Of a stretch of DNA of 56,650 nt, positions 22,508-52,996 are shown piece after piece. Below the pieces are notes generated by a model. That model made no database searches and was not told the DNA's origin. It saw only the letters and a program-made list of their open reading frames with translations. Numbering within the stretch: position 1 is the stretch's first letter; every line of letters starts with the position of its first letter. Source of the DNA: Deltaproteobacteria bacterium (GTDB lineage Bacteria; Myxococcota_A; UBA9042; PHBI01); the NCBI GenBank assembly GCA_016792665.1, contig JAEUKJ010000237.1, forward strand, positions 1-56,650. Direction: 5' to 3'. Position numbers and translations under genes: made by a program.

Positions 22508-24001
22508 GTGCTCTTTCCGACCTGGACGTTCCTGTTCTTTCTCGTCGTGGTGGTCGGCGCGCGCTGGCTGCTCTCACGACGGACCCGCCGGCAGCCTGGC
22601 TCCGCCAGGCCTTGTGCGGGCGGTGATGAGCTCGTCCGGGCGTGGCTCCTCTTCGCGAGCTACGTCTTCTACCTGTCCTGGGGGCCGCTCTACGGGGTCC
22701 TGCTGGCAGGTGTGACGGTCGCGACCTGGGCCGTCGGGCGCCAGGTCGGTGACACGAGCCGCGCCCAACCCATCCGCAAGCGTTGGCTCGTCGCGGGCGT
22801 GGTCGTGAACCTCGGGCTGCTCGCGTTCTTCAAGTACGCGCAGTTCGCGGTCGACCAGGTCCACCTCCTCATCGCCCCGACGGGCGAGCCACCTCCCGCT
22901 CTGGGAATCGTGCTCCCGCTCGGCGTCTCGTTCTTCACCTTCCACGCCGTCAGCTACCTCGTCGACTCGTATCGTGGCGGCGAGGTCGAACGTTCGCTGT
23001 CCACCTTCGCCCTCTACTTCGTCTTCTTCCCGCACCTCATCGCCGGCCCCATCGTGCGCGCGCGCGAGCTCGTCCCGCAGCTGCACGCCCGCCCGCGTTT
23101 CGACCCGGCCCAGTTCGCCGACGGCATCGACCTCATCCTGCGCGGGCTGGTGAAGAAGATGGTCATCGCCGACCGCCTGGCCGAGCACAGCGACAAGGTC
23201 TTCGCCGACCCGCACCTCTACGGCACCGGCACGACCTGGCTCGCGATGCTCTGCTATGCGGGGCAGATCTACGGCGACTTCTCCGGCTATACCGACATCG
23301 CGCGCGGCGCCTCGAAGCTCATGGGCTACGAGATCCCCGAGAACTTCCGCCTGCCCTACCTCGCCGGCAGCATCACCGAGTTCTGGCGTCGCTGGCACAT
23401 GACGCTGTCCCGCTGGCTGCGCGACTACCTCTACATCGCGCTCGGCGGCAACCGCCACGGAGAGGCGCGCCGCAACCTGAACCTCTTCCTCACGATGGGG
23501 CTCGGCGGACTCTGGCACGGGGCCGGCTGGACCTTCGTCCTCTGGGGCGTCTTCCACGGGCTCCTGCTCGTGCTCCACAAGCTCTGGGTCACCGTCACAG
23601 CACCCCTCATGGACCGCGCGCGCACCCCCGCCTCGCGCCCCCTGCGCCAGAACTTTGCGTGGCGAATTTTCGCCACCGTGGCGACTTTTTGCCTCGTGGC
23701 GCTGGGCTGGGTCCTCTTCCGCGCCCCCGACCTCGACACCGCGCTCGTCGTCTACGACCGCCTCCTCCCCGGCGCCAAATCGCTGACCCCCGTCACCGGC
23801 CTGGCCGTCTACTGGGCCGTCCTCCTCGTCCTCCTGGCGAGCCAGCTCATCGGCGCCTGGAAGGACGGCAAGTGGCTCTGGCGCTGGCTCGGCGAGGCCC
23901 CCGAGCGTGCCTGGGTGCGCGGCCTCGTCTGGCTCCTGGCCATCGCGGCCTGCTTCTTCTTCGCCGGCAAGCCCGCCGAGTTCATCTACTTCGCGTTCTA
24001 G
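22508..24001 (+). CDS. MBOAT-family O-acyltransferase (AlgI-like)
   Basis: 497 residues from GTG, polytopic membrane protein with about 10 or more helices. Family signatures: FFKYAQFAV, SFFTFHAVSYLVD, FPHLIAGPIVRA, GDFSGYTDIARG, ITEFWRRWHMTLSRWLRDYL and the catalytic His337 in GLWHGAGWTF. AlgI-type proteins pass acyl groups across the inner membrane to acetylate exported polysaccharide or cell-wall sugars. The next gene, 15 bp downstream, encodes an SGNH-like protein, the usual partner that completes transfer in the periplasm. The glycan acceptor cannot be told from this window; no polysaccharide synthase is nearby. Confidence 0.92.
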   Translation: MLFPTWTFLFFLVVVVGARWLLSRRTRRQPGSARPCAGGDELVRAWLLFASYVFYLSWGPLYGVLLAGVTVATWAVGRQVGDTSRAQPIRKRWLVAGVVVNLGLLAFFKYAQFAVDQVHLLIAPTGEPPPALGIVLPLGVSFFTFHAVSYLVDSYRGGEVERSLSTFALYFVFFPHLIAGPIVRARELVPQLHARPRFDPAQFADGIDLILRGLVKKMVIADRLAEHSDKVFADPHLYGTGTTWLAMLCYAGQIYGDFSGYTDIARGASKLMGYEIPENFRLPYLAGSITEFWRRWHMTLSRWLRDYLYIALGGNRHGEARRNLNLFLTMGLGGLWHGAGWTFVLWGVFHGLLLVLHKLWVTVTAPLMDRARTPASRPLRQNFAWRIFATVATFCLVALGWVLFRAPDLDTALVVYDRLLPGAKSLTPVTGLAVYWAVLLVLLASQLIGAWKDGKWLWRWLGEAPERAWVRGLVWLLAIAACFFFAGKPAEFIYFAF

Positions 24002-24016
24002 CAGGACGTCGCTCCC

Positions 24017-25639
24017 ATGCCTCACGCCCCGACCGATCCGAACCACGCAGCGACCTCCCCGGCACGTCCGGGGCGCGCGCTCGTGACCTCGGTCGCCGTC
24101 GTCGTCGTGGGCCTCGCCATCGCGCTCATCGCCTTCGAGGTGAGCGTCTATCCGACGAAGCTCGTCGCGCAGTCGCGTCACCAGGCCCTTCCCGCGATGT
24201 TGGACCAGCTCGACGCGCCCGCCGAGATCGCCGTCATGGGCGACTCGCGCGTCATCCACGGCGTGCGCCCCTCGGTCATCGCGAACGTGTTCTCCGACCA
24301 TCTCGGCGTCGCGCCGCGCGCCGTGAACCTCGGCCTCCCTGGCGCCCCGCCGGTCGCGATGCTGGGCTTCGCCGAGCACCTCGTCGCCCGGACCCCGCCT
24401 CGCGTGGTCGTGCTGGCGCTGTCGCACTACATGTTCTCGACGGCTCAAGATCCGCAGAACGCGCGTGAGCCCATCCTGGCGCTCTTCCACGCCACCGACC
24501 TGCCCCGCGCCCTCCTGGCTGGGATGCCCTTCGAAGAGGCCAGCGAGGCCTTGGCCGCCGACCTCTTCGCGCCACTCCGCTTCCGCTCGCGCATCCTGTC
24601 GCGCCTCCTCGAAGGCAAGCTCTACACCGACGACGACCCCTTCGCCGTGACGCTGGTCGGACCGCCGACCGAGCCGGGCTGGCTCTACGCGACCCGCGTC
24701 ACCGCCCCCGAGCAGCGCCGCCGGATGAGCCTCCGCGCCGAGGGCACGCGCAAGGTCATGAACCCGGACGAGCCCGACTCGGCCAAGCTCTTCGAGCGAC
24801 AGTTCGGCTACCTCGCGTCGACCATCGCGCTCCTCCAGAGCCACGGGGTCCGCGTCGTCTTGATGGAGAGCCCGACCGCCAGCGGGGTCTGGCCCTACCT
24901 CTCGATGGACGCCAAGAACCTCTATCCCGTCGTCGATCGGCGCATCGCCGACATCGCGCAGCGCTACGCGGTCCCCTGGCTCCATCATCGCCCCGACTTC
25001 GTCGTCCCCGATTCCTACTACACCGACGGCGACCACCTGAGCCCCGACGGTGCGGCCCGCTTCACCGCGCTCTTGACCCACCGGATCCTCATCCCCGCGT
25101 GGCGCGGCGAGCCCATTCCCGCGCCGCTGCCCGACCGCTGGACGCGACCCGCCCCGAGCCCGAACTGCGAGCTCCTCTTCGACTTCGAGGCGACCACCCC
25201 CGAGACCTTCGACACCCCCGGTGCCTGGGAGCTGGACGGCGACGCCTTCGCGACGCTCTCGGTCACCGGTTCTCAAGGGGCCCAGGCCGACATCGTCGGC
25301 GCCGTCGGCTACGGCCTCGTCAACACCGCGACGGCCGAGAGCGGCGACCGCGCGACCGGCTCGGCGACCTCCTCCGAGTTCGTCATCACGGCACCGTCCC
25401 TACACCTGAAGGTCGGCGGTGGTCGCTTCCCGCGTACGGCCGCCGTCGTGCTCGAGGTCGACCGCGAGGACGGCGAGCGCGCTCGCTTCGCCACCGGCGA
25501 GCAGAGCGAGAACCTGCGCGAGGTCGTCTGGGACGTCTCCGAGTTCATCGGTCTACGTGCGCGCCTCCGGATCATCGACAGCGAAGCTTCGGCGTGGGGG
25601 CACCTCGTCGTCGATCAGATCGAAGCCTGTCATCACTGA
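24017..25639 (+). CDS. Membrane-anchored SGNH/DHHW-like protein, partner of the MBOAT
   Basis: 540 residues. One N-terminal helix (about 20-41) anchors the protein with its body in the periplasm. SGNH features: block I MGDSR (Ser77) and block V DGDHLSPDG with Asp337 and His340. These match acetyltransferase or esterase partners of MBOAT proteins (AlgX/AlgJ or PatB-like). After about residue 375 a separate beta-sandwich domain follows (LLFDFEATTPETFDTPG to VDQIEACHH), resembling a carbohydrate-binding jelly roll. AGGACG lies seven bases before the ATG. With the MBOAT gene it forms a two-gene O-acylation operon. The binding domain suggests that it holds the glycan substrate itself. Confidence 0.8.
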   Translation: MPHAPTDPNHAATSPARPGRALVTSVAVVVVGLAIALIAFEVSVYPTKLVAQSRHQALPAMLDQLDAPAEIAVMGDSRVIHGVRPSVIANVFSDHLGVAPRAVNLGLPGAPPVAMLGFAEHLVARTPPRVVVLALSHYMFSTAQDPQNAREPILALFHATDLPRALLAGMPFEEASEALAADLFAPLRFRSRILSRLLEGKLYTDDDPFAVTLVGPPTEPGWLYATRVTAPEQRRRMSLRAEGTRKVMNPDEPDSAKLFERQFGYLASTIALLQSHGVRVVLMESPTASGVWPYLSMDAKNLYPVVDRRIADIAQRYAVPWLHHRPDFVVPDSYYTDGDHLSPDGAARFTALLTHRILIPAWRGEPIPAPLPDRWTRPAPSPNCELLFDFEATTPETFDTPGAWELDGDAFATLSVTGSQGAQADIVGAVGYGLVNTATAESGDRATGSATSSEFVITAPSLHLKVGGGRFPRTAAVVLEVDREDGERARFATGEQSENLREVVWDVSEFIGLRARLRIIDSEASAWGHLVVDQIEACHH

Positions 25640-36831: not shown

Positions 36832-38550
36832 CTACTTGAGGGTGGCGTTGAGCGTCCAGCTCTTGAGCGTCCCGACATCGTCGGCCGCGGTGTCGACCAC
36901 GACGAGGCTCCACTTGCCCTTCAGGGCCTTGCCCTTGAAGGCCGTGACCGTGAAGGTCTGGTCGAGGCCCGTGCCCGCGACGCCGGCGCCGTCGTAGAGC
37001 TTGGCGCTGACGCCGTCCTTCACGAGGGTCACGACCAGGTCGCCGATCCAGCTATGGTCGATGCTGACCTTCACGGACAGGGTGTCGATGGTGCCGGTGT
37101 CGGTCGCGTCGATGCTCGAGGTGACGCCGGCCGCCTTGTTGTCGGGGATCGTCGCGGCCGTGGTGTTGCTGTAGGTCTTGGCGCCCGGGGTCGGGGTCGG
37201 GGTGGTCGTGCACAGCGAGCCGGTCGGCGAGAAGCAGTTGTCGCGCACGCCGCTCATGCCGAAGGTCGAGTCGCCGACGCGCGTGCGGATGGCGCCGAGG
37301 ATGTCCTTCCACGAGACCTTGTAGCCGTTGTCGAGGGCCAGGAGGAGCTTGGCCAGGAAGGGGCCGGCGAACTCGTTGGCGTTGGCCGAGACCTCGACCA
37401 CGGCCGAGAGCAGGTCGAGCTTGTCCCAGCCGCCCTTGCCGGCGAGGATCGGCGCCACGTAGTACTCGTAGCCGAGGCACCCGCCGTAGAGGAAGACCTG
37501 GTAGAAGTTCGGGTAGGTCGGGCGGTTCCAGAAGTCGCTCGCGCCGAGCATCGAGTGCCCGTCGTAGGTCACGATCTCGTGCTCGCTCAGCGCCTTCTGG
37601 AAGTTGCCGAAGTGGGCGCTGTCAGACAGACCCGAGAAATCATACGGGGAGTACAGGTCGACCTGGACCTCGACGCCCTTGACGGTCTTCGTGTAGCGGA
37701 CGCCGACGGGCGCGGGCTTCACTTCCTTGAAGCCGCCCTGGGCGAGCCACTTGCCCATCTGCAGGAACGCCCGGTAGCCGGTCTCGGTCTTGGACAGCTC
37801 GTCGTCGATGAGGCCGAAGAGGACCACCATGGTGACCTTGCCGTCGGCGACGAGCTTGTCGTACTCGGGGTAGGTGACCTTCGAGGGCAGCATCTTCGAG
37901 ACGGTGACCTTCATGGTCTGGGTCTTGGCCGTGCAGCCCGCCCGCGGGTTCCAGAGGTACCAGTAGTAGGTCTGCGAGAGCTCGATGTGGCCGCCCGCGT
38001 CACCGCAGGTCGTGCCACCGTCGGCGTAGATCGAGAACGGCTTCACCGGCACCGGCGCATCGAACACCGTGCCGACGGTGACGCCGTTCTTGGCCGAGTT
38101 CAGGAGCACCGCGTTGATGCCGCGGATGCGGAAGTGGGTGAGCTTGGACTTCGCGACGCTCGCGATCTCGCGGCCGGACTTCCACGCGCCGTCGATGAGC
38201 CACTCCACGCGGTCGGCGCTGCTGGCCTGCTCCGCCAGCGACTCGATGTAGACCGACTTGTTGTTGCGCAGGTAGGTCATCGCGAACTGGCCGAGGATCG
38301 CGGGGCCGTCGGACTTGCGCGAGTCGGGGGCGTCGAGGTCGGCTTCGATGTCGACCTCGACCTCGATCCCGTCGGGATTGAAGTACTGCGTGTCGGCCTT
38401 GCCCGGGGTCTCGGCCGGCTCGGTGAGCGGGTTCGAGGCGTTCTCGTCGAAGTCCGTCCCACCGGGGGCCGCGCCGTCGTCGCAGCCGAAGGCTCCGGCG
38501 CTGAGCGCCAAGCCGAAGAAGAGGGTCTTGAGCTTCATGCCGTGCCGCAT
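36832..38550 (-). CDS. Lipoprotein with possible caspase-fold peptidase domain and P-domain
   Basis: 572 residues, with AGGAG eight bases before the ATG. A lipoprotein signal (FFGLALSAGAFGC) gives a lipidated N-terminus. The last 110 residues (about 460-572) form a P/Homo B proprotein-convertase domain: TIPDNKAAGV, VSIDHSWIGDLVVTLVKDG, LKGKWSLVVVDTAADDVG. The middle has two blocks like a clan CD cysteine peptidase dyad: hydrophobic strand plus His-Ser (VTYDGHSMLGA, His332) and hydrophobic strand plus Gly-Cys (VFLYGGCLGY, Cys358). The 26-residue spacing is shorter than in gingipain or caspases. The catalytic call is inference; the P-domain and lipobox are clear. Likely on the outer membrane. 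Confidence 0.72.
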   Translation of the reverse strand: MRHGMKLKTLFFGLALSAGAFGCDDGAAPGGTDFDENASNPLTEPAETPGKADTQYFNPDGIEVEVDIEADLDAPDSRKSDGPAILGQFAMTYLRNNKSVYIESLAEQASSADRVEWLIDGAWKSGREIASVAKSKLTHFRIRGINAVLLNSAKNGVTVGTVFDAPVPVKPFSIYADGGTTCGDAGGHIELSQTYYWYLWNPRAGCTAKTQTMKVTVSKMLPSKVTYPEYDKLVADGKVTMVVLFGLIDDELSKTETGYRAFLQMGKWLAQGGFKEVKPAPVGVRYTKTVKGVEVQVDLYSPYDFSGLSDSAHFGNFQKALSEHEIVTYDGHSMLGASDFWNRPTYPNFYQVFLYGGCLGYEYYVAPILAGKGGWDKLDLLSAVVEVSANANEFAGPFLAKLLLALDNGYKVSWKDILGAIRTRVGDSTFGMSGVRDNCFSPTGSLCTTTPTPTPGAKTYSNTTAATIPDNKAAGVTSSIDATDTGTIDTLSVKVSIDHSWIGDLVVTLVKDGVSAKLYDGAGVAGTGLDQTFTVTAFKGKALKGKWSLVVVDTAADDVGTLKSWTLNATLK

Positions 38551-40093: not shown

Positions 40094-41674
40094 TCAGCGG
40101 CGGTAGACGGTGATCGTCTCGAAGGTCTGGACCGCATGCCAACCGGCACGGAGGACGACCTTTGCCTCGGGGCCGTCGGTCGGGAGTGCGGCGTAGTCGA
40201 AGACGGAGGCCGCGAGCAGGCGGCGATTGAAGGGGACCTGCGGGATGGTGCGGCCCATGACGACATAGCCGCCGTTCAAGTGCTGACGATCGTGCAGCAA
40301 GAGGCCGCTGGCGTCGGGCTGGCGGCCGACGAAGTCCTGGGCCGCGAAGATGTCGGCGCGCTCGCGCCACTGGAGGTCGTGGGGTTGTTGGCCGTCGATG
40401 AAGGGGACGTCGGTGGGGGCCGTGCCGAGCGCGTTGGTCGCGAGCAGGCTGAGTCCCAGAACGAGACCCAGGCCTTCGGCGGCGACGCGACCGCTGGCGA
40501 GGTGTGCGGTCTTCGAGCGCACGAGCGTGACCAGGGTGACGAGGCCGACCCCGAGCATGGCCGCGAAGATCGGCCACTGGTTCATGAGGAAGCGTTCCTC
40601 TTTGTGGGGCACGGTCGAGAGCAGGACGAGCGGCAGGGCGGCGGTCAAGAGCAGCAACCAGGTGCGCTTCAGGCCGGCGAGCGCGACCGCGACGATGAGC
40701 GGGGCGAGAGGACCGAGACGCGCCCACACCGCGACGGCGAGGTAGAAGAGGGTCGGGCTCTTGCCGTGGTCGCTCGCGCCGCCCTCGATGTAGTTGTACT
40801 TGATGTGCTCGATGATCGAGTGGAACGGCTTGCCCCACGTGGCCCAGTCGACCACGCCGAGGGCGAGCACCGGGCCGGCGGCCCCGAGCAGGACGCGGCC
40901 CAGCGTCGCGAGCCGCGAGAGGTGCGGGTTGGGGCGGACGAGCATCGCGATGATCGGGACGACCATGAAGAAGCCGGCCGTGAAGCGGAAGACGCCGGTG
41001 AGGCCGAACCAGAAGCCGACCCAGAAGGCGGCGCGTCTGGCAGCCTGAGCGGTCTCGGCGCGCGTCCCCTCGAGCCAGTGGACGAGGCCCCAGGTGAAGC
41101 ACAGGAGGCCGGGGGTGCCCTGCAGCGTGTGCGGCGTCCAGTAGAGCAGCGTCGGCAGGAGCGCCATGAAGAAGGCGATGGCGAGGCCGGTGAGGGTCGC
41201 GCGGTCCAGACCGAAGGGGCCGCCCGAGAGCGTCGGACGGACATCGGGAGGGCCGGCCGCGGCAGGCTGGGTCTTGAAAGAAGACTCAGCCCCGAGGATG
41301 CGCCCGATGCGATAGCCGGCGGGGATGAGGGTGAGCGACCAGAGCGCGTGGTGGAGCACGATGACGCGTTGGGCGTCGAGGCCGCGCAGGCCGAGCCAGG
41401 ACAGGACCTCGAGGAAGCCGCCGTACTCGGCCGGGACCAGCCAGGTGCGAAGGCCGCGACCGAACTCCCACGGTAGCCAGCCGACGCCGGTCTGGAGCCA
41501 GTAGCCCGGCTCGAGCTGCTGGAAGATCTCGTCGGGGTAGTGATAGCCGCCCTGGAGGGCCCACACGACGAGGCGCGCGGCGAGGCCGAGACCCATCCAC
41601 GCGAGGAGCACCCACAGCACGCGACGCGCGAGCGGCGAGGTCATCGGGGGTGCGGAGGAGGGGGCCGCGCTCAT
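40094..41674 (-). CDS. GT22-family mannosyltransferase-like membrane protein (Alg9/PIG-B type)
   Basis: 526 residues, about ten membrane helices. GT-C fold features: acidic pair Asp48-Glu49 in the first outer loop (YHYPDEIFQQLE) and HKEERF at 357-362, the most conserved GT22 motif. Family members use polyprenyl-phosphate sugars to extend lipid-linked or anchor glycans outside the cytoplasm. The C-terminal 120 residues form a soluble periplasmic part. The ATG overlaps the stop of the discoidin-like gene. It is the last gene of a three-gene operon that starts with a polytopic protein carrying a secreted tail, suggesting assembly of an envelope glycan or glycolipid. Confidence 0.9.
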   Translation of the reverse strand: MSAAPSSAPPMTSPLARRVLWVLLAWMGLGLAARLVVWALQGGYHYPDEIFQQLEPGYWLQTGVGWLPWEFGRGLRTWLVPAEYGGFLEVLSWLGLRGLDAQRVIVLHHALWSLTLIPAGYRIGRILGAESSFKTQPAAAGPPDVRPTLSGGPFGLDRATLTGLAIAFFMALLPTLLYWTPHTLQGTPGLLCFTWGLVHWLEGTRAETAQAARRAAFWVGFWFGLTGVFRFTAGFFMVVPIIAMLVRPNPHLSRLATLGRVLLGAAGPVLALGVVDWATWGKPFHSIIEHIKYNYIEGGASDHGKSPTLFYLAVAVWARLGPLAPLIVAVALAGLKRTWLLLLTAALPLVLLSTVPHKEERFLMNQWPIFAAMLGVGLVTLVTLVRSKTAHLASGRVAAEGLGLVLGLSLLATNALGTAPTDVPFIDGQQPHDLQWRERADIFAAQDFVGRQPDASGLLLHDRQHLNGGYVVMGRTIPQVPFNRRLLAASVFDYAALPTDGPEAKVVLRAGWHAVQTFETITVYRR

Positions 41675-42369
41675 GGCTTTGCTCCGCCCGGGGCGAGGTC
41701 CGGTCGGTGGGGGCGACCCAGGGCTTCGAGCTCGTAGAGGCGGACGACGGCGCGCGGCGAGTCCTTGGCGGTCTCGACCGCGAAGTCGATGCGCAGCCCG
41801 GTCACGGCCGCGCACGACAGCGCGTGTCGGGCGACGGGCGCGCGGTTGTCATGGACGGCGAGGCTCGGGCGCGGAGCGTCTCCGGGGCCGAGGCAGGTGA
41901 GGGTGTACTCGCGGATGGTGTACGCGCCGTCTTCGAAGCGGCCGGCGTGCACGAGGCGGACCTCGTCGAGGTCGACCGGCCAGGGCCAGCGCACGATGAG
42001 CCACGGGGCGCGGTCGCTCGGGGCCGAGACCCACTTCATGAGCGGGTCGATGCCCTTGGCGTCGCCGTCTGAGCCGGTCCCCCCAATCCCCCCGATCCCA
42101 TCGACCGCAAAGATCGGATGGTGATTGGCCGGCGAGAGATAGCTCGAGACCTCGAGGCGCGCGCCGAGCTCGTGGCGCGCGAGGTCGGTCACGGTGGAGC
42201 CTTCGGGGACCGCGGTGGCGAAGGCCGGGGTCACCGGGTGTGAGCGGCGCACCACCACGACGATCGCGGCGAGGGTCACGAGCCCGAGCCAGGCCCATGC
42301 GAGGCGCTTGCCCCAGCGCATCGGCCCCGCCGGCAAGACGTCGGAGAGCCGTGCGGGCGCGTCGCTCAT
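41671..42369 (-). CDS. Membrane-anchored protein with discoidin-like (F5/8 type C) domain
   Basis: 232 residues. One N-terminal helix (about 23-40) anchors it. The outer part looks like a galactose-binding jelly roll of the F5/8 type C kind: RAPWLIVRWPWPVDLDEVRL, VHAGRFEDGAYTIREYTLTC and a final VVRLYELEALG. A low-complexity GIGGIGGTGSDGD loop lies in the middle. It sits between the polytopic protein and the GT22 enzyme with four-base overlaps on both sides, so the three products are made in fixed order. It probably binds glycan or positions the transferase substrate; no direct evidence. Confidence 0.72.
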   Translation of the reverse strand: MSDAPARLSDVLPAGPMRWGKRLAWAWLGLVTLAAIVVVVRRSHPVTPAFATAVPEGSTVTDLARHELGARLEVSSYLSPANHHPIFAVDGIGGIGGTGSDGDAKGIDPLMKWVSAPSDRAPWLIVRWPWPVDLDEVRLVHAGRFEDGAYTIREYTLTCLGPGDAPRPSLAVHDNRAPVARHALSCAAVTGLRIDFAVETAKDSPRAVVRLYELEALGRPHRPDLAPGGAKP

Positions 42370-44756
42370 GGCGCGCACCGGGCGCCGATGGCGTCGAGGA
42401 ACCAGCCGGCGCGGATCTTCAGGCTCCGGACCTGTTCGCCACTCGGGCATCCGTGGTCGAAGCGATCGCCGTCGGGGCCGCCGACCACGGGTCGCACCGT
42501 GCGGCCGCCGTTGGCGTCGCGGCAGCGCAGGCCGAGCGCGCGCACCATGCGATCGGCGCGGCCGGTCAAGCCCAGGACGACCTGGCCGGGTCCGCACTCG
42601 AGGCGCTCTTTGATCGACCCGCTCTCGGGACGACCGCGCCACGGTCCCTCGACCAGGCGCGGCAGCTCGGCCGCGGCGAGGCGCGGATCGGGAGCGGGCT
42701 CGGGCGTGGGGGTCGGCACGACGTCGGGAGCGGGCTCGGGCGTGGGGGTCGGCACGGCGTCGGGGGTCGGCACGGCGTCGGGGCTCGGCACGACGTCGGG
42801 AGCGGGCTCGGGCGTGGGGGTCGGCACGGCGTCGGGGGTCGGTACAGGGCTCGGCTCGAGGCCCGGGTCCGGCTTGGGCGGGCTGGGTGCGACCTCCGGG
42901 GCCTCGCTCGGGGGCCGGGTGCAGAGCGTGCGCACCGCGGCGACGGTGGTGCCATCGTGAGAGACCTCGAGGCCGGCCAGGTCCGTCTTGTCGGGGCAGG
43001 CCTCGAAGTACACCGTGCCGCCCATGCCGCCGGACATGTCGACGCCCCAGTCGGCGGGCTTCAACACGGTGAAGAGCCACCACGGCCCCTCGTGCCAGCG
43101 GAGCTCGAGCTTCTTCGAGTTCGTCGCCTGCGAGGGCTCTCCGACTTGATACACCAGGACGAAGTCCCACTCGAAGAGGTTGGGATCGTTCCAGAAGCGT
43201 CCGTCGAGCTGGGACGGCGTCTTGCCGGTCTTGAAGTCGACCGGGTAGTAGGGGCGCATCGCGAAGTTGTCGTCGGTGTAGCCGCCGTTGGCGACCGCGT
43301 TGACGGCCTTGGGGATGTGCCAGTGCGGCCCCATGTAGGTCGTGTCGAGCTCCCAGACGGTGCGCACGTAGGCCAGGCGCGTCTTGTCGGGGAGGTCGGC
43401 GATGGCCTGCGGCAAGGTCCCCACGATGTCGCGATCGAAGGCCTTCGACACCTTGCGGACGGCGATCGGATAGGCGATGCCGACCGTCAACAAGACGCCG
43501 GCAAGGGCCAGGGTGCGCTTGGTCAGCGCCACGCGCGGCCACAGTACGAAGAGGAAGATCGCGACGAACCACGCGCGCTCGGAGATGATCGCCACCTCGC
43601 GCAGGTGGTTGGGCAGGACGAAGTAGCCGACCATGCAGCCGAGCGTCATCAGCTCGAGGGTGTAGCTGCGCAGCGTCGTGCGCCACCCCGAGGCGGGAGG
43701 TCCGGTGATGGGGCCTGGAGCCGCGAGCGCATCGGGCGTGGCCGGTGTGGCTGGCGCGGTGAGGGGGCCCGGCGCGCGGCGGATGGCGATCGCGACAAGG
43801 ATGAGCCACACGAACAGGAGGGCCAGGAGCGCGAGCTCGTCGGCGTTGTTCTTCAGGAAGCGGAGGCCCCACTCGTGGAGGCCGTCGATGCGCTTGTCGA
43901 GGGGGTTGAACACCGAGCCGAGGCCGTCCTGCTTCCCGACGAAGGTGCGCCCGGCCTCGGTCGCCTCGTTCGCGATGATGCGGGAGTAGACCCAATAGAG
44001 GAAGAGCGGGCTCGAGTAGAGGACGGGGCCGAGACGCGTGAGCGGCTTCAAGCGGGCGAGCCACGAGCGCCCCGGCCACGCCCCGAGGCTCGGCAGGTGC
44101 AGGGCCAGCATGGTCGCGACCATCGCCACGCACATCATGTAGCCGATGATGTGTGCGAGGAACGTGGTCGCCATCAGCAGACTCAGCCCGAGGCCGCGCC
44201 ACCACCCGCCCTCTTCGGCGAAGCGGCGGGCCAGGGCCACCGACCAGAAGATCATCGGCATCGCGACCAGGAAGTTGATGAAGCCGATGTTGAAGACGGC
44301 GTTGAAGACCATCGGCGCCGAGAACAGGGCGAGCCACGCGGGGCGGTCGACGGCCTTGGCCAGCGAACGAATCGAGAACGGCAGGGCCACCACGTAGAAC
44401 GCGATGAGGATCTTCGCGATGGCGAAGGCCCCGAGCGTCGACCCGAAGAGCTGGGCCAGGACGAGGCAGAGGCCGTTGGCGGTGAACGGGCTCGTCGTGT
44501 TGTAGACCTCGGGGTAGATCGTGGCCGGGTCGTCGTGCCGCGCCATGATGTCCATGATCTCGATGTGGCCGCCGACGTCCTGCATCGGCAGCCAGCGCAC
44601 CGACAGCACCACCCACAGGTTCATCGCGGCGGCGATGGCGAGGAGCAGGACCGCGTGGTGGGTGCGCACGAAGGTGCCGACACGCCACGCGAGCGACGGG
44701 GTCGAGGGGGCCGCTTCATGCGGGGGTGGGAGCGGCGCGGCGGGCGGGAGGGTCAT
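42366..44756 (-). CDS. Polytopic membrane protein with Pro-rich repeats and Cys-containing lectin-like tail
   Basis: 796 residues. About ten to twelve helices in the first 450 residues with a GT-C-like layout (acidic loop MQDVGGHIEIMDIM after helix 1). A periplasmic segment (LPDKTRLAYVRTVWELD, MGPHWHIPKAVNAV) follows, then Pro/Thr/Glu repeats (PTPEPAPDVV units, about 625-690). The last 90 residues carry Cys-paired blocks (CGPGQVVLGLTGR, ALGLRCRD, FDHGCPSGEQV, WFLDAIGARC), similar in style to jacalin or VMO-I surface domains. First gene of the operon with the discoidin-like protein and GT22 enzyme. Probably a glycosyltransferase of unknown family, inferred from fold and neighbours. Confidence 0.7.
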   Translation of the reverse strand: MTLPPAAPLPPPHEAAPSTPSLAWRVGTFVRTHHAVLLLAIAAAMNLWVVLSVRWLPMQDVGGHIEIMDIMARHDDPATIYPEVYNTTSPFTANGLCLVLAQLFGSTLGAFAIAKILIAFYVVALPFSIRSLAKAVDRPAWLALFSAPMVFNAVFNIGFINFLVAMPMIFWSVALARRFAEEGGWWRGLGLSLLMATTFLAHIIGYMMCVAMVATMLALHLPSLGAWPGRSWLARLKPLTRLGPVLYSSPLFLYWVYSRIIANEATEAGRTFVGKQDGLGSVFNPLDKRIDGLHEWGLRFLKNNADELALLALLFVWLILVAIAIRRAPGPLTAPATPATPDALAAPGPITGPPASGWRTTLRSYTLELMTLGCMVGYFVLPNHLREVAIISERAWFVAIFLFVLWPRVALTKRTLALAGVLLTVGIAYPIAVRKVSKAFDRDIVGTLPQAIADLPDKTRLAYVRTVWELDTTYMGPHWHIPKAVNAVANGGYTDDNFAMRPYYPVDFKTGKTPSQLDGRFWNDPNLFEWDFVLVYQVGEPSQATNSKKLELRWHEGPWWLFTVLKPADWGVDMSGGMGGTVYFEACPDKTDLAGLEVSHDGTTVAAVRTLCTRPPSEAPEVAPSPPKPDPGLEPSPVPTPDAVPTPTPEPAPDVVPSPDAVPTPDAVPTPTPEPAPDVVPTPTPEPAPDPRLAAAELPRLVEGPWRGRPESGSIKERLECGPGQVVLGLTGRADRMVRALGLRCRDANGGRTVRPVVGGPDGDRFDHGCPSGEQVRSLKIRAGWFLDAIGARCAP

Positions 44757-45034: not shown

Positions 45035-45448
45035 ATGCGCACGCTCCTCCTCACGCTCGCGAGCCTTCTGACCCTTGCCTCCGGTAGCGCCCTGGCGGCG
45101 CCGCCCTGCCACGACGCGGCGCCGGCGTACGGCGACACGTATCGCTCCGACAAGGTCGACATCTACTGGGGCACCTCGTGGTGGCCGGGCACGATCGTCG
45201 ACCAGCGCGGCGGCAGCTACCTCGTCCACTACGATGGGTGGAGCTCGTCGTGGGATGAGTGGGTCGGCGCCGAGCGCCTCCGCTTCGCGGCCGCCCCGGT
45301 CGTGTATCAGCCGCCCGTCGTGTATCAGCCGCCGGTCGTGTACCAGCGGCCGGTCTATCAGCCGGTGTACCAGCCGGTGCGCTACAAGGTGCCGGTGCGG
45401 CACCAGCGCCCGGTCTCGCCCCCGCGCTACGGCAAGCACTATCGCTGA
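45035..45448 (+). CDS. Exported Tudor-knot/agenet-like protein with YQPPV repeats
   Basis: 137 residues. Sec signal peptide (LLLTLASLLTLASGSALA). Residues about 40-85 match a Tudor-knot or agenet-type SH3-like barrel: VDIYWGTSWWPGTIVDQ, SYLVHYDGWSSSWDEWV. In eukaryotes such domains read histones or nucleic acids; here the protein is exported, so another ligand is expected. The C-terminal 50 residues are Tyr/Gln/Pro/Val repeats (VVYQPPVVYQPPVVYQ) and a basic end. One Cys remains after cleavage. The ATG is placed by the signal peptide; an intrinsic terminator follows. No clear operon partner. Confidence 0.82.
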   Translation: MRTLLLTLASLLTLASGSALAAPPCHDAAPAYGDTYRSDKVDIYWGTSWWPGTIVDQRGGSYLVHYDGWSSSWDEWVGAERLRFAAAPVVYQPPVVYQPPVVYQRPVYQPVYQPVRYKVPVRHQRPVSPPRYGKHYR

Positions 45449-45599: not shown

Positions 45600-45912
45600 G
45601 TTCAGGAACAAGGTTCGGAACGCGATTGGTAAACTGCCAATCGGGTTCCGGAGGGGTCGGACACGCGATTTTGCGGCGGCCAATCGGGTTCCGGAGCGGT
45701 CGGGCACGCGATTTTGCGGCGGCCAATCGGGTTCCGGAGGGGTCGGACACGCGATTTTGCGGTGGCCCATCGGGTTCCGGAGGGGTCGGACACGCGATTT
45801 TGCGGCGGCCAATCGGGTTCCGGAAGGGGGCGGGCGCGCGATTCTACGCCGCTGAATCGGGTTCCGGAGGGGTCGGGCGCGCGTTTCTACGCCGCTGAAT
45901 CGGGTTCCGTAG
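45600..45912. repeat. 43-bp tandem repeat array, about seven units
   Basis: Units beginning aatcgggttccgga start at 45639, 45682, 45725, 45768 (catcggg), 45811, 45855 and 45898, that is a period of 43 bp with one of 44. A degenerate unit precedes the first. The shared core is tcgggttccggaggggtcgg followed by acacgcgattttgcggcgg. The last two units replace the gattttgcggcgg part with gattctacgccgctg. There are no distinct spacers and no cas genes, so it is not CRISPR. Function unknown. Confidence 0.9.
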
Positions 45913-45986
45913 GGGGCCGAGGGGCGTTGGGTCAGCCTGCGTGCGCGTCGAGGTCACGATCGTCTGACGCGGACGGCGCGGCGAGG

Positions 45987-50397: not shown

Positions 50398-52996
50398 CCG
50401 CGATGGTCCAGTCGCTGGCTTCGCCGACCCGGGTCTGCGCGAGGCGGTCCGTGTTGCTGCCGTCTCCGACCTTGCCCTGGAAGTTGCTTCCCCAGCAGTA
50501 GAGCGCGCCTTCACGCACCCCGCAGCTCGTCCCGTCCCCGAGGCCGAAGTGGCTCCAGGTGGCCGGAGTGAGCGCGGTCGGAGTCCCGGTCCAGACCGTC
50601 GTGCCGAGCCCGAGCGCCCCGTAGGCGTTGTTGCCCCAGGCGTACACGCCGCCCGCGCGAACGGCCGTGGACGCGTAGACCGTGGCGCTCACGGAGGTCC
50701 AGTCCGCGAGGGCCCCGACCCGCAGCGGGGTCGTGCTGGCGCTGGCGCCTCCCTGGCCGTAGGTGATGTCGCCCCAGCAGTAGAGAGCGCCGCCGCGGAC
50801 GCCGCAGGTGTGCTCGTAGCCGGCGGCGACGGCGACCCAGTCCGAGGCCTGGCCGATTCGGGTCGGGGTGGTGCGCTCCGTCTGTGCGCCCGAGTTGCCG
50901 AGCCCGAGCTGCCCCATGAAGTTCCAGCCCCAGCAGTAGAGCTCTCCCGCCCGCACTCCGCACGTGTGCCACGCGACGGCGACGCTCGTCCAGCCGCTCA
51001 GGTTGCCGACGCGCGTCGGCGTCCAGCGGTCGGTCTTCGTGCCGTCACCCAGGGTGCCAAAAGCGTTGTCCCCCCAGCAGTAGAGCTCGCCGCCGGCGCG
51101 CAGACCGCAGGCCGCGGCTCTGTGGCCAGCGCTGATGAGGGTCCAGTCCGACGTCTGGCCGACGCGCGTGGGCACGGCGCGCGGAGCTTCGTCCCCGACC
51201 CCGAGCGAGCCGTGATAGTTCTCGCCCCAGCAGTAGAGGGCGCCTCCCGCGAGGCCGCACATGAAGTCGCTGCCGCTCGTGAGCTGCGTCCACGAGGTCA
51301 CGTCGGAGGTCAGGTTGGGGGTCGGGTTCCACCCGCTCGACCCGTTGGCGAGCTGACCGAGGTCACTCCTCCCCCAGCACTCGACGCGACCGCCGCGCAA
51401 GCCGCAGCTGCTGGAGCCGTTGGTCGCGACCGCGCTCCAGCCGGTGCCGATCGAGACCGGGCTCTGCCGCGTCGCTGCCGTCCCGTCGCCGACGCAGCCT
51501 TCGACGTTGGCACCCCAACAGAAGGCCTCGCCGTCCTTCACGCCACACACGGCGTACAGGCCCACCGCCACGGAGGTCCAGGTGGTCCCGGCGCCGATCC
51601 GGGTCGGCGTCGCGCGGTTCGTGTCCGTGCCGTCGCCGACCGCGCCCCGCGTGTTGTAGCCCCAGCAGTAGAGGTCTCCGTTGCGAAGGCCGCAGGTCGT
51701 CGCGTTGCCCGCGTCGACCCTCACCCAGTCCGTCGCGTCACCGACCCGGGTCGGCGAGGTGCTCCGCGAGCCGCCGGCGCCGACCGAGCCATAGACGTTG
51801 TCGCCCCAGCACGAGAGGGCGCCCCCTTGGATCCCGCAGGTGTGCCGATCGCCGGCCGTGACCGAGGTCCAGTCCGCGCTGGAGCCGACCTGCGTCGGGC
51901 TCGTCGTGGAGGTCTCGTTGCCAAGGCCGAGCCGCCCTCGATCGTTCAGGCCCCAGCAGTAGAGCTTGCCGTCGCGGATCCCACAGGTGTGCTCGCTCCC
52001 CGCGCTGACACTCGTCCAGCCGCCTCTGCTGACCAGCGTCGGCACGGCGCGATCCGACGTGTCGCCGAGCCCGAGCTGACCATCGCCGTTGTCGCCCCAG
52101 CAGTAGAGGTCGGCGCCGCGAAGGGCGCACACGTGTCGATCCGAGGTGTCGAGGTGATGCCAGTCGGACGCCGTGCCGACCTGAACCGGCACGAGCCGCG
52201 GCGTCGCGTCGGGGCCGAGCCCGAGCGCACTCCAGGTGTTCGACCCCCAACAATAGAGGGTGCCGACCTCACTGACTCCGCAGCCGTGGACGCTGCCCAC
52301 CGCGATCTCGCGGTAGCCGACGCAGGTGGGGCCCGGCGCCGGGACGGTGCCGCCCTCGCACGTGCACGCGTACGTGCCGGGGAGGTTGTCGCAGATACCA
52401 TCGGCCCCGCAGATCCCGGGCGTCATCGTGCACTCGTCGAGGTCGCCGCAGTCTACACCGCCATAGCCGGTGGCACACTCGCAGGTGCGCCCCGCCGCTG
52501 CGTCCGGTGCGGGCGCCGGCAGGTCGCGACAGGTGGCCACGCCCGCGCATGGGAAGTGCAGGCAGGCGTCGATGTCGCTGCAGGTCAGGCCGTCACCCTC
52601 GTAGCCCACGTCGCACGCGCAGGTCCGTCCATCGGGGCCATCGACCGCCGGTGCGGGCAGGTCGCTGCACGTGGCATGAGCTCCGCACGGGGCGCTCACG
52701 CAGGCGTCGATGTCGGGCTGGGTGTCCTCGATCTCGGGCTGGGTGTCCTCGATGTCGGGCTGGGTGTCTTCGGTGTCGGGCTGCGTGTCTTCGGTGTCGG
52801 GCTGGGTGTCTTCGACATCGGGCTGCGTGTCTTCGACATCGGGCTGCGTGTCGTCGACCTCGGGCTGCGTGTCTTCGACCTCGGGCTGCGTGTCTTCGAC
52901 CCGGGTGTCCGTCTCGACACGCGCGTCGTCACCACACGCCGCCAGCACGAGCGCGACGGCGCACCAGCCGCCCCAGTCCAAACGACGAGCCTTCAT
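50264..52996 (-). CDS. RCC1-repeat surface lipoprotein with EGF-like domains
   Basis: 910 residues, AGGAG six bases before ATG. The lipobox is VLAAC (Cys21). A Thr/Asp linker follows with nine copies of a 7-residue unit (EDTQPDV type, about 27-95; coded by a 21-bp repeat, 52712-52900). Then come Cys-rich EGF-like domains (about 97-230). The rest is an RCC1-type propeller: I count fourteen C-W-G blade units (LYCWGDNGDGQLGLG type), the last partial. Fourteen would suit two seven-bladed propellers. Many blades begin with a TCGI/TCGV block, so disulfides between blades are likely. Probably an outer-surface binding protein. The 3' end overlaps the AraC gene antisense. Confidence 0.9.
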   Translation of the reverse strand: MKARRLDWGGWCAVALVLAACGDDARVETDTRVEDTQPEVEDTQPEVDDTQPDVEDTQPDVEDTQPDTEDTQPDTEDTQPDIEDTQPEIEDTQPDIDACVSAPCGAHATCSDLPAPAVDGPDGRTCACDVGYEGDGLTCSDIDACLHFPCAGVATCRDLPAPAPDAAAGRTCECATGYGGVDCGDLDECTMTPGICGADGICDNLPGTYACTCEGGTVPAPGPTCVGYREIAVGSVHGCGVSEVGTLYCWGSNTWSALGLGPDATPRLVPVQVGTASDWHHLDTSDRHVCALRGADLYCWGDNGDGQLGLGDTSDRAVPTLVSRGGWTSVSAGSEHTCGIRDGKLYCWGLNDRGRLGLGNETSTTSPTQVGSSADWTSVTAGDRHTCGIQGGALSCWGDNVYGSVGAGGSRSTSPTRVGDATDWVRVDAGNATTCGLRNGDLYCWGYNTRGAVGDGTDTNRATPTRIGAGTTWTSVAVGLYAVCGVKDGEAFCWGANVEGCVGDGTAATRQSPVSIGTGWSAVATNGSSSCGLRGGRVECWGRSDLGQLANGSSGWNPTPNLTSDVTSWTQLTSGSDFMCGLAGGALYCWGENYHGSLGVGDEAPRAVPTRVGQTSDWTLISAGHRAAACGLRAGGELYCWGDNAFGTLGDGTKTDRWTPTRVGNLSGWTSVAVAWHTCGVRAGELYCWGWNFMGQLGLGNSGAQTERTTPTRIGQASDWVAVAAGYEHTCGVRGGALYCWGDITYGQGGASASTTPLRVGALADWTSVSATVYASTAVRAGGVYAWGNNAYGALGLGTTVWTGTPTALTPATWSHFGLGDGTSCGVREGALYCWGSNFQGKVGDGSNTDRLAQTRVGEASDWTIAVTAQTQSCGVKAGRLYCWGTTGRSPNYGFGAQWAPAPILSPQSP

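Follow-up and report, generated by a model that had tools for sequence, protein, structure and literature searches.

We analysed a window of 56,650 nucleotides from a deltaproteobacterium (Genome Taxonomy Database lineage Bacteria; Myxococcota_A; UBA9042; PHBI01) and focused on three adjacent genes on its minus strand, here called A, B and C. The window is one entire contig (JAEUKJ010000237.1) of assembly GCA_016792665.1, which comprises 7.25 Mb in 789 contigs and is 85.6% complete. Gene A (42366-44756, minus strand, 796 amino acids) encodes a predicted GT-C membrane enzyme (residues ~22-567) that ends in a predicted jacalin-related beta-prism lectin (~569-613 and 700-796). Gene B (41671-42369, minus strand, 232 amino acids) encodes a predicted N-terminal membrane helix (~19-43) followed by what is likely a discoidin/F5-8C-like beta-sandwich (~64-225), and gene C (40094-41674, minus strand, 526 amino acids) encodes a member of GT22, the Alg9-like mannosyltransferase family, with the stretches YPDEIFQ and HKEERF. 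Reading both junctions confirmed the two ATGA overlaps that an earlier note, written from the letters of the window alone, had described as joining the three genes. The stop of A and the start of B share positions 42366-42369, the stop of B and the start of C share 41671-41674 (both minus strand), and both junctions read CCATGAGC, with the four bases ATGA common to each gene pair. The arrangement of A, B and C is fit for coupled translation.

The length of an open reading frame is weak proof of a gene in this DNA, because it is 71% G+C and a spurious frame of 876 amino acids runs antisense to A. We consider all three to be real genes because of the G+C content by codon position, which in A is 0.67/0.51/0.94, and because homologues of all three proteins were found. 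Between 38500 and 45500 no sigma-70-type sites were detected and terminator-like sites were at chance level (1 vs 1.8 expected), so the limits of the operon are not set. For comparison with other organisms we used a set of 52 genomes from the class and a set of 377 from the phylum; fetched loci are labelled L and genomes G, each with a number.

Members of the A family occur widely across its class, yet the family has no matching entry in Pfam or NCBIfam: A itself gave no family in either database at E values up to 1, while a profile of its membrane part gave 121 matches in 46 of the 52 class genomes. The seeds of this profile came from A's own genome and five of the others. A scan of named genomes with profile A7 identified eight Myxococcales loci with relatives of A, and a sequence search of the PDB with profile A4 returned chance matches only. 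The evidence for the fold comes from an AlphaFold model built on 27 sequences (pLDDT 81.6, pTM 0.75). Foldseek placed chicken ALG12 first (E 4.5e-6), followed by oligosaccharyltransferase catalytic subunits and AftA, interspersed with lectins. VIA-align matched the model to the yeast oligosaccharyltransferase catalytic chain STT3 (8age_A; Z 17.3, 421 residues aligned, root-mean-square deviation (rmsd) 4.8), to AftD (Z 16.6, 399 aligned, rmsd 6.2) and to Pmt4 (9i5l; Z 16.1, 364 aligned, rmsd 5.1), all exceeding the Z of about 13 below which the tool's own note calls a match weak for helical models. The model thus shows a GT-C fold in the membrane part of A, and the GT-C-like helices suggested for the first product in the earlier note are borne out by the matches of its predicted structure to ALG12, STT3 and AftD.

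The WWDYG-type motif is the signature of STT3. The WWD triplet of this signature is absent from the protein sequence of A, and we rejected A as an STT3 oligosaccharyltransferase because it lacks the triplet. Across the 27 rows of the A-family alignment, P57, R138, G158, W255 and P382 are invariant, and D60, H64, H202, D306, R394 and H480 are among the residues conserved in at least 90%. D60, which is acidic, comes after the first helix (22-52 in the model) and lies in the first external loop. An excerpt of PMC6801728 describes an essential acidic motif of GT-C enzymes right after the first transmembrane helix.

The tail of A is modelled as a three-repeat beta-prism I lectin, with repeats at ~569-613, ~700-746 and ~750-796 and one Cys pair in each. 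With VIA-align its best match was WGA16 (3wob; Z 19.4, rmsd 1.7, 131 aligned), and HelTuba (Z 19.2) and ZG16 (Z 18.8-18.9) were close behind, so that by its predicted structure the tail is a jacalin-related beta-prism lectin domain. The Cys-paired tail of the earlier note therefore stands as a three-repeat jacalin-type beta-prism; the Pro-rich spacer described with it is present, although it lies inside the lectin, after the first repeat. This Pro/Thr-rich linker (42660-42917, minus strand; residues ~614-699) separates repeat 1 from repeats 2 and 3. The model has pLDDT <50 over residues 620-690, and the DNA of the linker is built on a 36/72-bp tandem repeat at 42688-42842.

Like the jacalin-related lectins ZG16, HelTuba and banana lectin, the tail has the beta-prism I fold, a GG loop (SGGMGG, residues 575-580) and a GxxxD stretch. 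The latter is GWFLD (residues 784-788; codons at 42393-42407, minus strand), the sugar-site motif of mannose-binding jacalin-related lectins, and is here a predicted site. Unlike those lectins, the tail is fused to a GT-C enzyme, has a pair of cysteines in every repeat, contains an insert of ~85 residues, and does not match PF01419, for which two homologues scored 0.0081 and 0.059, both below the cut-off. Of the 27 rows of alignment A6, 10 are tailed (chosen by eye), and every one of these has GxxxD in its last repeat; in the two A-like genes at L138 the final repeats read GMHVD and GQHID. According to an excerpt of PMC4059138, ZG16p binds mannose via Gly35 of its GG loop and a GxxxD stretch running from Gly147 to Asp151. 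The correspondence of G580, G784 and D788 of A with Gly35, Gly147 and Asp151 was read off only from where the aligned range begins and ends, and we did not count it as evidence.

Gene B had no Pfam match, and two of its homologues matched PF00754 (F5_F8_type_C) below the cut-off (L128 8.6e-4, L039 0.017). A model of B from two sequences, of low confidence (pLDDT 58.6), has a membrane helix at 19-43 followed by a beta-sandwich. With this pLDDT 58.6 model as the query, Foldseek listed, in order, a GH92 multi-domain enzyme, a chitobiase F5/8C domain, factor VIII C2, neuropilin b1 and CBM32, with a best E of 1.6e-3; the best VIA-align match was 2kd7 (Z 8.4 over 124 residues), and nearly all top rows of the two lists were of discoidin type. 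B is likely, on this model, a membrane-anchored beta-sandwich of discoidin type; we grade the fold as likely only, because Z 8.4 is barely above the range of models without a clear match. The discoidin-like second product of the earlier note thus agrees with the fold of the low-confidence model and only weakly with sequence, through the sub-threshold PF00754 matches of the homologues. A further candidate homologue of B, at L030:4320-5324, was rejected (blastp E 0.49).

Gene C matched PF03901 (Glyco_transf_22) with an E value of 6.6e-34 and 118.2 bits, far above the curated cut-off of 23.8. A profile of nine C homologues (A3) matched the solved structures of ALG12 (9s6t, 1.3e-12) and ALG9 (9s6s, 3.2e-9). 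Together these matches uphold the identification of the third product as a GT22-family protein. D48 of YPDEIFQ and R361-F362 of HKEERF are invariant in the A3 alignment. C keeps the PDE and HKExRF stretches of the family of ALG9, ALG12, PIGB and PIGZ, and differs in being bacterial and translationally coupled to the discoidin-like membrane protein B. GT22 is patchy, above cut-off in 11 of 52 class genomes and 39 of 377 phylum genomes, and a scan of named genomes using C gave no confirmed relatives.

We examined 27 GT22 loci besides the window. Weak class matches (L037, L042, L043, L047 and L048) were left out of this count, and outside the class wider stretches were fetched only for phylum GT22 matches of E 4e-21 or stronger. 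Neighbour counts are lower bounds because several contigs are short, for example at L031, L035, L044, L045 and L139. A B-like gene lies directly before GT22 at three of the 27 loci (L128, L133 and L134), each with the identical ATGA overlap, and the three belong to two other families of the phylum. Profile A5, made from B and the L039 homologue only, independently found all three (7e-34, 9e-33 and 7e-6, respectively); profiles A6 and A8 include some sequences that they match. The B profile matched 8 of the 377 phylum genomes, five of them strongly, all five sequences being within the profile itself. GT22 adjoins four of the five strong matches; the fifth (genome G002, locus L039) adjoins an MBOAT gene and is one gene away from an A-family gene. 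Separately, the window itself encodes at 22508-25639 an MBOAT acyltransferase and, after it, a protein that is weakly SGNH-like; in G002 it is an MBOAT gene that separates the B and A homologues.

We discounted three weak matches of the B profile (L154-L156) as F5/8C-type proteins distinct from B, and the stretches fetched around them held no GT22 or A-profile matches. At L156:2-6828 the gene for an F5/8C protein, above the Pfam cut-off, comes immediately after a gene for a PMT_2 GT-C protein, and this pair is preceded by two genes that overlap by four bases; a discoidin gene beside a GT-C gene thus recurs there.

A-like genes lie near GT22 at five of the 27 other loci. The two genes are convergent at L030, on the same strand with an ATGA overlap at L035 and divergent at L135 and L141, and at L138:2454-6688 a tandem pair of A-family genes, both lectin-tailed, is followed by a convergent GT22 gene. 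By chance about 0.1 A-family genes would be expected within 5 kb of GT22, an estimate that takes the class average (121 matches in 52 genomes) as the rate. This excess bears on an alternative explanation, that there is no shared pathway and A is an independent GT-C protein co-transcribed with the B-C pair by chance. The trio was found only once and the nearest relatives of A are without B and C, as that explanation would have it. We regard it as very unlikely given the excess, the stop and start codons coupled across the trio, and the position of B in G002, one gene from an A-family gene. The trio may have arisen recently, when a recurrent B-C pair was joined by a commonly associated enzyme, A.

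At L030 the A-like gene and GT22 stand amid genes for an aminotransferase, a PMT_2 protein, a YfhO-like protein and a methyltransferase, which suggests a surface glycan locus; two further GT-C-like proteins are encoded in this cluster. At L141 a GT2 enzyme (PF00535, E 2.5e-32) adjoins the A-like gene, and it has a C-terminal hydrophobic layout like that of polyprenyl-phosphate sugar synthases. The L030 cluster also encodes two proteins (L030:1172-1951 and L030:11855-12556) that weakly match the lectin tail of A (E 3.3e-7 and 1.2e-4).

These two proteins also count in favour of a rival explanation, protein glycosylation. Here A (or C) would move mannose or an oligosaccharide off its lipid carrier onto secreted proteins, in the manner of PMT and STT3 enzymes, and the lectin and discoidin domains would recognise the product once glycosylated. 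PMT enzymes carry a luminal mannose-binding MIR domain, as described in an excerpt of PMC7759382. The structural matches of A to STT3 chains and Pmt4 point in the same direction. We nonetheless think this explanation unlikely: the best Foldseek match of A, ALG12, is a lipid-linked-oligosaccharide enzyme, and A lacks the WWD triplet of STT3. Moreover, the characterised members of C's family add to lipid-bound glycans (PMC6801728, in excerpt).

A different fate for the product is raised by the neighbours of GT22 elsewhere. A large RND-type gene neighbours GT22 at 6 of the 27 other loci (L032, L033, L034, L129, L140 and L142), and the three neighbours run against Pfam (L034, L129 and L140) are MMPL proteins. 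GT22 at these six loci may make an exported lipid. If the same held for the window, C would glycosylate a lipid for export to the outer membrane, and A and B would be accessory proteins. This is distinctly unlikely for the trio, since inspection of the gene list by eye showed no RND-type gene beside it, and none of the six is among the loci with A- or B-like genes.

On balance, and with modest confidence, we favour a reading in which A and C are a periplasm-facing pair of glycosyltransferases acting on lipid-linked sugars, and B and the beta-prism of A are modules that bind the acceptor or the product. A and C would sit in the inner membrane with their active sites toward the periplasm, where together they probably assemble a sugar chain external to the cell membrane. 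They may take their sugars from polyprenyl-phosphate, as GT-C enzymes use lipid-linked donors. C would add a hexose, most likely mannose in view of its family, onto a lipid- or glycan-bound acceptor, and A would add a further residue. By binding the growing glycan, the lectin tail and B could hold the acceptor close to the active sites and modulate processivity. The length of the Pro-rich linker may leave two thirds of the lectin free to swing, or allow the domain to shut around a bound chain. Such a pair would yield an envelope glycan or glycolipid.

The suggested effect on processivity is modelled on the MIR domains of yeast PMTs and the carbohydrate-binding module (CBM) of EmbC. Excerpts of the respective papers describe the MIR beta-trefoil as having mannose-binding sites and influencing processivity (PMC7759382), and the C-terminal domain of EmbC as a lectin-like CBM containing sites that are critical to activity (PMC3044687). 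Like the yeast and fungal PMTs, A is a GT-C enzyme with an extracytoplasmic module that has putative mannose sites and may influence catalysis. MIR is a beta-trefoil, whereas the module of A is a C-terminal beta-prism interrupted by its Pro-rich linker, and A has no PMT Pfam match. The mycobacterial enzymes EmbC and AftD offer a second likeness, as GT-C membrane enzymes with an extracytoplasmic carbohydrate-binding domain (at the C terminus in EmbC), AftD also matching A in fold. The CBM of EmbC is, however, a beta-sandwich on the same chain, while here the beta-prism is on A and the sandwich is the separate protein B.

Several observations weigh against the periplasmic pair. The full trio occurs at only 1 of 28 GT22 loci, the window, and none of the other 27 has both an A-like and a B-like gene. 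G002 has B with no GT22 match in its genome. The closest relative of A that we found (L101, 44% identity) has no tail, and no B or C within 3.7 kb upstream and 8 kb downstream. The next relatives (35-37% identity) are tailed and stand beside ribosomal-protein and peptidyl-tRNA-hydrolase-like genes (by eye), with no GT22 seen nearby. A is therefore not dependent on B and C everywhere. The tail is lacking in 17 of the 27 A-family rows, including L040, which is cut by a contig end, and the model of B is of low confidence. The uncharacterised surface glycan pathway that the earlier note proposed is supported in part. Its guesses for all three domains are upheld, and neither outcome that it named as a refutation, a first protein lacking a GT-C fold or an operon lacking conservation, came about: A has a GT-C fold by model, and both the B-C and the A-C pair are seen again at other loci. 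The exact three-gene order is found in the window genome only, and the pathway itself is something we infer.

A bolder version can be put forward as speculation that is probably wrong in at least part: B would be a dedicated sugar-reading subunit of a bacterial GT22 and A a lectin-gated mannosyltransferase, together forming a chain-length-controlled counterpart of oligomannose assembly in the endoplasmic reticulum, with the split beta-prism closing on the product to stop synthesis. The enzyme families are known. New to us are the fusion of a jacalin-type lectin to the end of a GT-C enzyme, and the coupling of GT22 to a discoidin-type partner. In the paper library that we searched, we found no GT-C enzyme with a jacalin-type lectin and no paper linking GT22/PF03901 to myxobacteria. 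If the modules read the product, the trio would offer a small, testable bacterial system for the use of lectin domains by membrane glycosyltransferases, as in the PMT and Emb enzymes. GT22, a family known chiefly for its part in the glycan assembly of humans and yeast, also gains in gene B a recurrent bacterial partner, which could aid in solving and assaying GT22 enzymes.

Other features of the window lie on both sides of the trio. Upstream of it, a short plus-strand gene is followed by a 43-bp tandem repeat at 45636-45915 (6.5 copies, 90% matching), and 45035-45448 encodes a small protein whose start is signal-like and which carries a Tudor-knot/Agenet-like domain. At 36832-38550 lies the gene for a protein with a signal-like start and a proprotein convertase P-domain at its end. 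Finally, a 21-bp tandem repeat of 9.2 copies at 52707-52899 falls within a predicted open reading frame with a lipoprotein-like start.

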